NCBI GenBank assembly: GCA_025362035.1
Contig: JANYIN010000163.1
Coordinates: forward strand, 1-64,000
Direction: 5' to 3'
Length of the DNA stretch: 64,000 nucleotides
From: Gemmatimonadaceae bacterium
GTDB lineage: Bacteria; Gemmatimonadota; Gemmatimonadetes; Gemmatimonadales; Gemmatimonadaceae
Each line of letters opens with the position of its first letter. Positions within the stretch are counted from its first letter, which is position 1. The translations under genes were made by a program, and so were the position numbers. This document shows, in pieces, positions 56,902 to 63,570 of this stretch. Under the pieces are notes generated by a model. The model searched no databases. It saw only the letters and a program-made list of their open reading frames with translations, and was not told where the DNA came from.

Positions 56902-57034
56902 CGCCGCCGCCGTTACCGGGCCAGGCGCGGCTCCGGCAATGGCGGCGTCATACAGGTCGATCAGAAGGTCGCGCCCGCGAGGTGATGTTCGCGTCAGACG
57001 ACGAGTCTCGCACGAGAAGACTGCTGGGAATCAC

Positions 57035-57604
57035 TCAACGCGAAGGGAGCGTCCCCTTCACTGCGGCCTCGAGCTCGTCGAATGATCCCTGCGCGAGCTC
57101 GTTGAAGGGTTGCATTCGCTTCACGACCTTCCCCGATGGATCGACGACGAACACAGATCTGTTGTCGAGCGCTCCGCGCGTGGAGCCGTACAGCTTGCCG
57201 ACCTTCTGCCCGACGTCGCTGCCGAATACCACCGGCGTCTGCAGATCGCGCGCCCATGATGCCAGCATCGTGTCCGCATCGACACTGATGCCGATGACGA
57301 CGACGTTGCGTCCGTTGTTGAAGAGCTTGGCGTACTGATCACGGTACGCCTCCATTTGAACCGTTCAGCCCTTGGTCCGCGCCCTGTAGAAGAAGGCAAG
57401 CACCACCGTTTTTCCGCGAAAGTCCGAGAGATGCACCGGATCGCGCAGCAGCCCGTACCGGGTGGCACCGGGCAACGCAAACTCGGGCGCCATTGTGCCG
57501 ACCTCCGGGGCAGGCGTCGCCGCCTCCTGCGCTCGGGCGGAGCCGGCAAGGGCCGTCATGGCGAGCAGCGCGACCACCCATCTCGATCCAAAAGACTTCG
57601 ACAT
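57035..57604 (-). CDS. Exported peroxiredoxin with in-frame TGA at the peroxidatic site (probable selenoprotein)
   Basis: A 189-residue thioredoxin-fold peroxidase if the TGA at 57365-57367 is read as selenocysteine (residue 80). Signal peptide: SRWVVALLAMTALAGSARA, cut before QEA. Before the TGA the frame reads VLAFFYRARTKG and after it TVQMEAYRDQYAKLF: the AhpC/TSA active-site context, where homologs have Cys in TxxC. The rest (NVVVIGISVDADTMLASWA, FVVDPSGKVVKRM) is intact. No cysteine occurs in the mature protein, so a 1-Sec mechanism is expected. A hairpin with bacterial SECIS geometry follows the TGA. The start ATG at 57604 is set by the signal peptide. A nonsense mutation is the alternative. 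Confidence 0.8.
57329..57350 (-). promoter_or_regulatory. Candidate bacterial SECIS hairpin
   Basis: On the mRNA, GGCGUAC and GUACGCC form a perfect 7-bp stem with loop CGUGAUCA. The loop starts 22 nt after the UGA and has G as its second base. This agrees with the published general model for bacterial SECIS elements (16-37 nt distance, loop of 3-14 nt, a G in the first two loop positions). Confidence 0.65.
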
Positions 57605-61435: not shown

Positions 61436-62467
61436 GTGAACATCCCGCCATTTCCGTCTGACCCCGCCGACGTCGCCGCCATCACCGAATGGCTCATGTG
61501 CATCGAGTCCACCAGCGGCAACGAGATCGCGCTCGTGAGCGCCCTGCATGACGCGCTGATCGCGCGGGAATGGGCCGTGACGCTGATTCCTGTAGCGGCC
61601 GGGCGATGCGACCTGCTCGCCACAAGTGGAAGTGGCCCGTTCGTAACGCTATCCACGCATCTCGATACGGTCCCGCCGTTCATCCGGCCCACGCGTGACG
61701 CCACGCGCATTTACGGCCGCGGCGCGTGTGACGCGAAGGGTATCGCGGCGTCGATGCTGTCCGCCGCGGAACGGCTGCGGAGTGACAACATTTCCATCGC
61801 GCTGCTCTTCGTCGTGGGGGAAGAGACGGCGCACGACGGCGCCCACGCGGCTGACGTTTGGCGCAGTCGTACCGGATTCCGCAGCCGTGCGCTCGTGAAC
61901 GGCGAACCGACGGAGAACACGCTTGCCCTCGGCACTAAGGGCGCGATGCGGCTGGTGATGCGTACCACCGGAGAGGCCGCGCACTCGGCGTATCCGCAGT
62001 TTGGCCGCTCAGCGACGCACGCGCTGGTGCACCTCCTCGCGGAGCTCGACACGGTGTCGCTGCCGAAGGACGACCAGCTCGGCGACACCACAATCAACAT
62101 AGGGTGGCTGTCTGGGGGAGTGGCCGACAACGTGACGGCGCCGAGTGCCGAAGCCCGACTGATGGCGAGACTGGTCACTCCGGCCGATACCGTATGGGAT
62201 ATCCTCAACGACTGGGTGCGCGGTCGAGCAGATCTGGAACGCGGCATTGAGGTGCCGCCGGTGCGCCTGGGCACCTTACCCGGCTTCGCAACCTCGGTGG
62301 TCGCCTACGCGACCGACATACCAGCGCTGCCCTCGTGGGGCACTCCCTATCTGTTCGGCCCGGGGTCGATCCACGTGGCGCATGGAGCGGACGAGTCCAT
62401 CGAGGTCGCGGACCTGCACGCGGCGATCGGCGCGTACGAGCGCATCGTTCGGGAGTTGAGCCGCTAA
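61436..62467 (+). CDS. M20-family deacylase/peptidase (ArgE/DapE-like)
   Basis: A 343-residue zinc hydrolase of the ArgE/DapE/ACY1 group. Metal ligands and catalytic residues are visible: [11 protein letters not shown] (H and D), [15 protein letters not shown] (bridging D), [11 protein letters not shown] (catalytic E plus E) and [15 protein letters not shown] (H near the C-terminus). The dimerisation lid is [20 protein letters not shown]. Which acyl-amino acid is cut cannot be told. The start is a GTG at 61436. Its end overlaps the convergent patatin gene by 4 nt. Confidence 0.88.
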
Positions 62468-63570
62468 CCGCCGGCTCCGCTGGGTGTGGGATCGCGCTGG
62501 GCCTCGAATTCCTCGCTGGACGTGCCACCGTTGCCATTGGTCGTGGAGATGGCGAGAGTCGGGCATTCGTGCACGAACCCGCCGTCTGCTGGAGACCAGT
62601 CCACCGTGCGCGACACGGCGTAGGCCTTACCCTCGCCGTCCATGTCCATGAGGTTGGGCGCGATGGTCACGCAGGTGCCGCACCCAGTACACTTCTGGCG
62701 ATCCACGAAGATTTCCACGCGCCGTCGCGGGTATACGCAACGCGGGTTGTCCCAGTAGGTGTCGATGTCGCGCAGCGCCCGCATCGCGGCGCGATACCCT
62801 TCTTCGATATTCGCCGACGTATCGGCGAAGCTGAGCCAGTTAGCGTCGTTCACCTTCGGCCTGATGAGCACCATTGGCGGTCCGTTCCAGCTCTGTAGCG
62901 GGTATTGCTGCAGCGCGTGCATCATCATCGTCGCGGCCCGCATGTAGATCGTCGCGAAGCCCTGGGTGTCGGCGCGCGCAACCTGCGACGCGTCCGAGCT
63001 ACCAACGTCCACGGCGATGATCAGATCAGCGAACTGCGCCGTGATGGAGACGGGAAGATTGTCCACGACGCCACCGTCGATGCAGGTGCGCGCGCCCACG
63101 TGTCCGGGCGGGAAATAGCCGGGCAGGGCGCACGACGCGTACACTGCTTCGCGGACGCTCACATCGCGCAGTCCGGGTAGTCCCCAAACGACGCGCGCGC
63201 CCTGGTCGAGATCGACCGTGTTCACGAGGAGCCTTCGCGGCAGATCGTCGAAGGTGCCCTCGGGTACCGCGTCCGCGCACAACTGCCGCAGCGGCTCCTC
63301 GAGGTAGATGGACCGCGATTGCATCCGGTCCAGAAGCATGCCGAAATGGTTGACGCGAAACAGATCTTTCCGGCGCATGGATTGCACGCGCGCCATCATT
63401 TCGGACACCGAGATGCCGCCCAGGTGCGCCGCGGCGATGAGCGCGCCGATGCTCGTGCCGGCGAACGTATCGGGCACGATGTGGAGTTCTTCGAGTGCGC
63501 GCAGCACTCCGATATGCGCAAATCCCTTCAGCCCACCGCCGCCGAGCACGAGGGCAACACGTCTGGCCAC
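62464..63570 (-). CDS. Patatin-like phospholipase fused to a C-terminal ferredoxin-like Fe-S site
   Basis: A 368-residue two-part protein. The patatin domain shows the oxyanion loop GGGGLKG, nucleophile Ser40 in GTSIG and catalytic Asp165 in IDGGVVDNLP, so lipid acyl hydrolysis is expected. From about residue 285 a short ferredoxin-like segment follows: Cys294, Cys297, Cys300 (KCTGCGTCVTIAPN) and Cys336 (HECPTLAI), the four ligands for a [4Fe-4S] or, if one is unused, [3Fe-4S] cluster. No signal peptide is present. The role of the cluster in a lipase is not known to me; it could sense redox state or take electrons. Confidence 0.85.
   Translation of the reverse strand: MARRVALVLGGGGLKGFAHIGVLRALEELHIVPDTFAGTSIGALIAAAHLGGISVSEMMARVQSMRRKDLFRVNHFGMLLDRMQSRSIYLEEPLRQLCADAVPEGTFDDLPRRLLVNTVDLDQGARVVWGLPGLRDVSVREAVYASCALPGYFPPGHVGARTCIDGGVVDNLPVSITAQFADLIIAVDVGSSDASQVARADTQGFATIYMRAATMMMHALQQYPLQSWNGPPMVLIRPKVNDANWLSFADTSANIEEGYRAAMRALRDIDTYWDNPRCVYPRRRVEIFVDRQKCTGCGTCVTIAPNLMDMDGEGKAYAVSRTVDWSPADGGFVHECPTLAISTTNGNGGTSSEEFEAQRDPTPSGAGG

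Follow-up and report, generated by a model that had tools for sequence, protein, structure and literature searches.

A putatively exported peroxiredoxin of Gemmatimonadota with a probable selenocysteine at the peroxidatic position and a conserved SECIS hairpin

The peroxiredoxin gene and its surroundings

The window (the whole 64,000-nt stretch of Gemmatimonadaceae DNA analysed here) carries on its minus strand a gene for an AhpC/TSA peroxiredoxin (Table 1). The frame opens with the ATG at 57604-57602 and ends with the TGA at 57037-57035, and its read-through translation meets just one TGA in between; the product reads MSKSFGSRWVVALLAMTALAGSARAQE...VVLAFFYRARTKG-U-TVQMEAYRDQYAKLF...GTLPSR. An earlier sequence-only reading of this DNA had given the interval exactly as we find it, leaving the strand unstated; the plus-strand reading of 57035-57604 was discarded, as it holds no protein-like frame. 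That reading had also described a single TGA read through with protein-like sequence on both sides, and the match to PF00578 (AhpC-TSA) does cross the TGA, with 84.8 bits against a cut-off of 26. In the Pfam search of the genome the locus was flagged with "1 TGA" inside the match. The same reading had expected gene callers to split the gene: the mechanical ORF list indeed gives two fragments, an N-terminal one of 100 aa (57667-57365) and a C-terminal one of 106 aa (57355-57035).

Downstream of the gene lie genes for agmatine deiminase, an N-carbamoylputrescine amidase-like hydrolase, and a glycerate-kinase-like (MOFRL) protein; upstream are a glycine-zipper protein and aconitase. This gene order around the peroxiredoxin ortholog is conserved in congeners, as far as their contigs extend. 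Scans for sigma-70 promoters and terminators around the gene returned no match. Elsewhere in the window, a patatin-like phospholipase carries a 4Fe-4S ferredoxin domain fused to its C-terminus (62467-63570, minus strand; PF01734 with PF13459/PF13370).

Table 1. Features of the peroxiredoxin locus, in window coordinates
Feature	Position	Strand	Remarks
Predicted Sec gene, putatively exported AhpC/TSA (BCP/PrxQ-like) peroxiredoxin	57035..57604	-	189 aa; predicted Sec is residue 80; orthologs syntenic and conserved in seven genomes of the genus
In-frame TGA, predicted Sec codon at the peroxidatic position	57365..57367	-	Motif FFYRARTKG-U-TVQMEAYRD
SECIS hairpin	57329..57350	-	7-bp stem GGCGTAC/GTACGCC, 57350-57344 pairing with 57335-57329
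Peroxiredoxin domain	57038..57526	-	No other Cys; T77 and R149 (NRSVFVVD) retained; Pro of PxxxTxxC replaced by Tyr
Putative signal peptide MSKSFGSRWVVALLAMTALAGSARAQE	57524..57604	-	Judged by eye: basic n-region, hydrophobic core, cleavage-like end ARA-Q

The TGA codon and the hairpin across the phylum

Among the 10 genomes of the genus, seven (that of the window included) have a TGA at the identical codon. These orthologs are 63-75% identical over the match, and the alignment across the TGA is gapless and nearly invariant. Among congeners, pN/pS is 0.22 upstream of the TGA and 0.31 downstream, the hairpin codons being excluded. A profile built from the seven orthologs matches 323 of the 395 phylum genomes, and nearly all of the ~75 strongest matches contain exactly one TGA. 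We gathered 144 sequences across the phylum, and their peroxidatic column is Sec (TGA) in 112 and Cys in 32. The sequence-only reading had placed the TGA at the position of the peroxidatic Cys and proposed an alignment with homologs; in the set examined, that alignment shows U or C in this column and nothing else. The tree implies about eight changes between Sec and Cys, at least seven of them forced by supported branches. Another 80 loci came from a collection of named genomes, where nearly all bear the title of a Gemmatimonadota metagenome-assembled genome (MAG), and plasmid records gave distant Cys peroxiredoxins only. Typical Gemmatimonadota Sec peroxiredoxin genes also occur in records (L153, L164, and L203) whose titles name Acidobacteria, the Terrabacteria group, and Euryarchaeota; these are probably mislabelled or misbinned MAG contigs.

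Downstream of the TGA is a hairpin that the sequence-only reading did not describe and that lends its selenocysteine assignment further support. The 8-nt loop, CGTGATCA (57343-57336), begins 21 nt past the TGA, and the 20-nt string GCGTACCGTGATCAGTACGC starts exactly 15 nt after it. Published rules for bacterial SECIS elements (bSECIS) ask for an apical loop of 3-9 nt, a stem of 4-16 bp, a distance of 16-37 nt from the UGA, a G within the first two loop positions, and a minimum free energy of −7.5 kcal/mol or lower (PMC13188914). The window hairpin lies within all of these constraints: Its loop is CGUGAUCA, whose second position is G and whose third is U, its stem has 7 bp, its distance is 21 nt, and its predicted folding energy is −11.8 kcal/mol. 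It resembles the E. coli fdhF-type SECIS in being a coding-region stem-loop past the UGA, with a G at one of the first two positions of the loop and then a U and with the loop 21 nt from the UGA. Compared with shuffled sequences, the energy is unremarkable (z = −0.64). Since the folding energy is not unusual by itself, the case for a SECIS is built on comparison.

The comparison indicates a SECIS hairpin that selection strongly maintains. Across 90 Sec sequences, the synonymous sites of codons +6 to +11 (GCG TAC CGT GAT CAG TAC) show 98-100% invariance; no other conserved residues are so fixed, and most fourfold sites use all codons. Paired cells make up 97.1% of the 7-bp stem over 80 distinct sequences, compared with 90.7% in shuffles. 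The basal pair is TA in 25 of these sequences, GC in 23, CG in 16, AU in one, and unpaired in 15; at the next pair, one sequence (L233) shows a double change from G-C to A-U at the cost of two amino acid changes. The covariation score of the stem (0.134 versus 0.028) is not reached in any of the 500 shuffles, and structures shifted along the sequence score far below it. As an exact string, TGA-N15-hairpin is found in 221 of the 395 phylum genomes (~56%) and in 78 of 138 genera, against 0 for the reversed control. This near-invariance across a phylum sets the hairpin apart from bSECIS elements in general. Putative bSECIS elements often lack any mutual resemblance (PMC13188914).

Of the 33 matches in Cys genes, nearly all resemble the hairpin in this stretch only as much as random synonymous codons would. 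The exception is two mutually identical sequences, L184 and L225, which are closer (P = 0.011). Relics of the SECIS in Cys genes were considered as a way to prove which way the change had gone and were rejected, as these genes are mostly no more SECIS-like than their amino acids require.

One TGC or TGT to TGA change would be enough to give the pattern in a single genome, and an ordinary Cys peroxiredoxin gene hit by a nonsense mutation, or misread in sequencing, would look like such a pseudogene. The conservation of the same TGA in the genus and in most of the phylum already refutes this explanation, and the purifying selection downstream of the TGA and the Sec-specific synonymous conservation of the hairpin argue further against it; its probability is negligible. 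The sequence-only reading, which judged that a random nonsense mutation would be unlikely to hit this codon, thus agrees with the counts in the genus and in the phylum.

The TGA could also be a true stop, with the downstream part made from the in-frame ATG at 57355, 9 nt past the TGA, and the hairpin acting as a regulatory or re-initiation signal. The 106-aa ORF of the ORF caller is exactly such a product, and this ATG does not vary among 81 Sec sequences. For the codon before it (codon +3, Gln, 57358-57356 on the minus strand), 91% of Sec genes use CAA despite high GC and all six Cys sequences compared use CAG, which is a Sec-linked preference outside the hairpin. However, the two halves form one peroxiredoxin domain, in which the catalytic residue sits where they meet, and intact Cys homologs are single proteins, mostly with Met at the corresponding place. 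The hairpin, moreover, fits the bSECIS rules and is associated with selA (see below). We regard re-initiation as very improbable, if marginally less so than a pseudogene.

Selenocysteine machinery

The sequence-only reading had suggested a search for selA, selB, selD, and tRNA-Sec, and the outcome favours its interpretation. The window's genome contains selA (521 bits; cut-off 267.9) and selB (324 bits, above its cut-off, plus a C-terminal part), and neither selD nor tRNA-Sec was found in its 93%-complete assembly. No tRNA-Sec was found beside selA or selB. Two candidates were rejected: The best Rfam match for tRNA-Sec is a tRNA-Ser(TGA), and the selD candidate on contig C177 scores 69 bits, below the cut-off, with a sequence that looks like thiamine-monophosphate kinase.

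Eight of the 10 congeners have selD followed within ~100 bp by tRNA-Sec, called by ARAGORN as tRNA-SeC(tca) with anticodon TCA. In these congeners the block runs secD-secF-...-ridA-selD-tRNASec-...-murI-lpxH. Contig C59 (56,984 bases) of the window's assembly stops inside secF, at 56,982, and murI, lpxH, and a close ridA were not found in the assembly. MurI is normally essential. Given the break in secF and the missing murI and lpxH, the absence of selD and tRNA-Sec is most simply an assembly gap, for which the case is strong though indirect. SelD itself contains Sec (ARCAGUAAK) in several congeners (L080, L081, L083, L084, and L086), and the SelD of G007-G009 has no TGA.

Of 80 fairly complete phylum genomes, 40 contain the exact hairpin and 40 lack it; selA is present in all of the former and in 11 of the latter (P = 9e-13, Fisher's exact test, kinship ignored). 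This association, together with selA and selB in the window's genome, bears on the possibility that a reassigned tRNA, or a near-cognate one, inserts a standard amino acid (Cys or Trp) at the UGA and that Sec machinery plays no part. The Cys found in this column in homologs without Sec would suit such a reading. On the other hand, TGA serves as a stop in the window, at the end of the peroxiredoxin gene among other places, and a SECIS would then be needless, yet the hairpin is near-invariant. Reassignment can hardly be credited, no more than a pseudogene. We conclude with a probability of about 0.96 that the in-frame TGA represents selenocysteine rather than a mutation, a judgement drawn from comparison of sequences.

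Two other Prx-family genes in the window's genome, both with TGA in the place of Cys, are probably selenoprotein genes as judged by sequence, and they add to the case for selenocysteine in the window gene. One (L001; G000:C200:1203-1577, minus strand) encodes a BCP-like peroxiredoxin with the motif DDTPGUTIEA; the other (L005; G000:C7:10425-10808, plus strand) encodes a Prx-like protein with RGHWUSHC. The former shares with the window gene a Sec in TxxU and a hairpin after the TGA. It differs in having no obvious signal peptide, in keeping the signature Pro (FFYPKDDTPGU), and in its hairpin, which has another sequence and starts 8 nt after the TGA.

The protein, its signature proline, and its relation to known peroxiredoxins

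The AlphaFold2 model of the window protein has a mean pLDDT of 87 and a pTM of 0.84. By profile and by predicted fold, the closest solved structures are the BCP/PrxQ peroxiredoxins 2ywn, 3hjp, and 5enu, and the Foldseek matches are peroxiredoxins. The Thr at position −3 from Sec/Cys is kept in nearly all members (Ser in a few); in the window protein it is T77 of TxxU, the conserved Thr to which the sequence-only reading had drawn attention. The active-site Arg (R149 of the protein, R123 of alignment A3; NR-S/T-lFV) is invariant in 38 sequences. The window protein has no second (resolving) Cys in its mature domain, and the other family domains counted likewise have no Cys besides the U/C residue, with L246 as the sole exception. 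Since the mature protein has no Cys, its reduction would have to come from an external thiol or redox protein, which would make the enzyme a 1-Sec (or 1-Cys) peroxiredoxin. The protein is likely exported: Its N-terminus looks by eye like a signal peptide, and all seven orthologs have a similar signal-like N-terminus with an invariant A-Q, also judged by eye.

The PxxxT/SxxC(U) signature is incomplete in the window protein: TxxU is present, and the Pro is replaced by Tyr. Among the 112 Sec members this position is Phe in 54, Tyr in 39, Ile in three, and Pro in 16, while all 32 Cys members have Pro, including Cys members nested on the tree within Pro-less Sec clades. The difference (Pro lost in 96 of 112 Sec members versus 0 of 32 Cys members) is highly significant if kinship is ignored (P = 2e-20, Fisher's exact test). 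Over independent pairs, Sec and Pro loss agree in three, disagree in none, and show no difference in four (P = 0.25). A Sec-linked loss of Pro is thus a suggestive pattern in the sequences rather than a demonstrated dependence.

Since the canonical Pro is missing, efficient peroxidase activity is not to be taken for granted. The protein may be a selenoprotein that uses the peroxiredoxin fold for something other than peroxidase activity, such as selenium-dependent thiol-disulfide or methionine-sulfoxide chemistry in the periplasm or the sensing of peroxide there. The replacement of Pro by Tyr, Phe, or Ile in most Sec members and the absence of a resolving Cys are consistent with such a role. 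So are the NCBIfam results, in which every peroxiredoxin equivalog cut-off was missed and no cut-off was reached by the window protein or across 38 members. Against it stand the retained Thr (or Ser) and active-site Arg and the fact that the closest solved relatives are BCP/PrxQ enzymes. We consider a non-peroxidase role unlikely, though with a real share of the probability, and a peroxidase function of the Sec protein likely.

For the selenocysteine peroxidase, we infer the following course. SelB, bound to the hairpin 15 nt past the UGA, would deliver Sec-tRNA(Sec), itself made by SelA with selenophosphate from SelD, and the UGA would be decoded as selenocysteine at the peroxidatic position. 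The precursor would then be exported to the periplasm via the Sec pathway. There the selenolate would attack H2O2 or an organic hydroperoxide, and a thiol or thioredoxin-like protein in the periplasm would reduce the resulting selenenic acid: a "1-Sec" mechanism.

Sec peroxiredoxins with TxxU are a tabulated selenoprotein family (PMC13188914, PMC9312934). A 2006 survey inferred several Sec/Cys events in peroxiredoxins and tabulated Sec peroxiredoxins mainly from anaerobes (PMC1794560). The window protein shares with PrxU of Eubacterium acidaminophilum ("Prx, TxxU", NF040737) the AhpC/TSA fold, the peroxidatic Sec, and the Thr of TxxU, although it scores only 45.5 bits against that model (cut-off 270). 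The Gemmatimonadota subfamily differs from PrxU in being putatively exported, in having a mature protein nearly always free of other Cys, in being mostly Pro-less, and in its near-invariant SECIS. The nearest relatives by sequence profile and fold are BCP/PrxQ proteins (NF006960; PrxQ 2ywn, 6e-26 by profile; Sulfolobus Bcp4 3hjp, 3e-12 and TM 0.76-0.79 by Foldseek). From these the window protein is set apart by its score (about 51-52 bits, cut-off 140), by Sec in place of Cys, by the absent resolving Cys, and by the signal-peptide-like N-terminus.

Targeted searches of open-access literature turned up no work about selenoproteins of Gemmatimonadota, and the phylum goes unmentioned in the main text of two selenoprotein reviews and a 2016 survey. 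Sec peroxiredoxins are already known. For a putatively exported, one-Sec, mostly Pro-less subfamily with a near-invariant SECIS, the part of the literature covered yielded no description, which is a weak hint that it is new. The sequence-only reading had called selenocysteine-containing peroxiredoxins known in a few bacteria, which holds for such proteins generally and falls short for this subfamily, which is phylum-wide in Gemmatimonadota.

Gemmatimonadota are a mostly aerobic soil phylum. According to a recent review, aerobic bacteria rarely retain selenoproteins (PMC13188914). A Sec peroxiredoxin in ~56% of the sampled genomes of such a phylum would be a large-scale exception. A broader proposal, on which we would put somewhat less than even odds, is that these proteins form a phylum-wide exported 1-Sec subfamily in which selenium has relaxed the active-site geometry, the otherwise universal Pro of PxxxTxxC being dispensable only under Sec and coming back upon reversion to Cys. 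If so, this largely aerobic soil phylum would have inherited from its ancestor, and kept, a periplasmic defence against peroxide that depends on selenium, contrary to the rule for aerobes.

The repeated Sec/Cys switches, with the SECIS frozen under Sec and free under Cys, amount to a natural experiment that bears on the benefit of selenium and on which SECIS bases SelB reads. For annotation, automatic procedures will split or truncate the Sec peroxiredoxin gene and NCBIfam models fall short of their cut-offs; the near-invariant hairpin can be searched for as a plain string.

Some genomes carry the peroxiredoxin gene in more than one copy. Tandem pairs, a Cys copy with a Sec copy directly after it, occur in genus g8 (loci L228, L231-L236, and L238; genomes G313, G099, G176, G264, G071, G090, G065, and G321), and the Sec copies of these pairs keep the Pro. 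Such a pair is possibly a Sec/Cys heteromeric or back-up pair. At one further locus (L242; G269:C18), two Sec copies stand in tandem, each with the exact SECIS hairpin.
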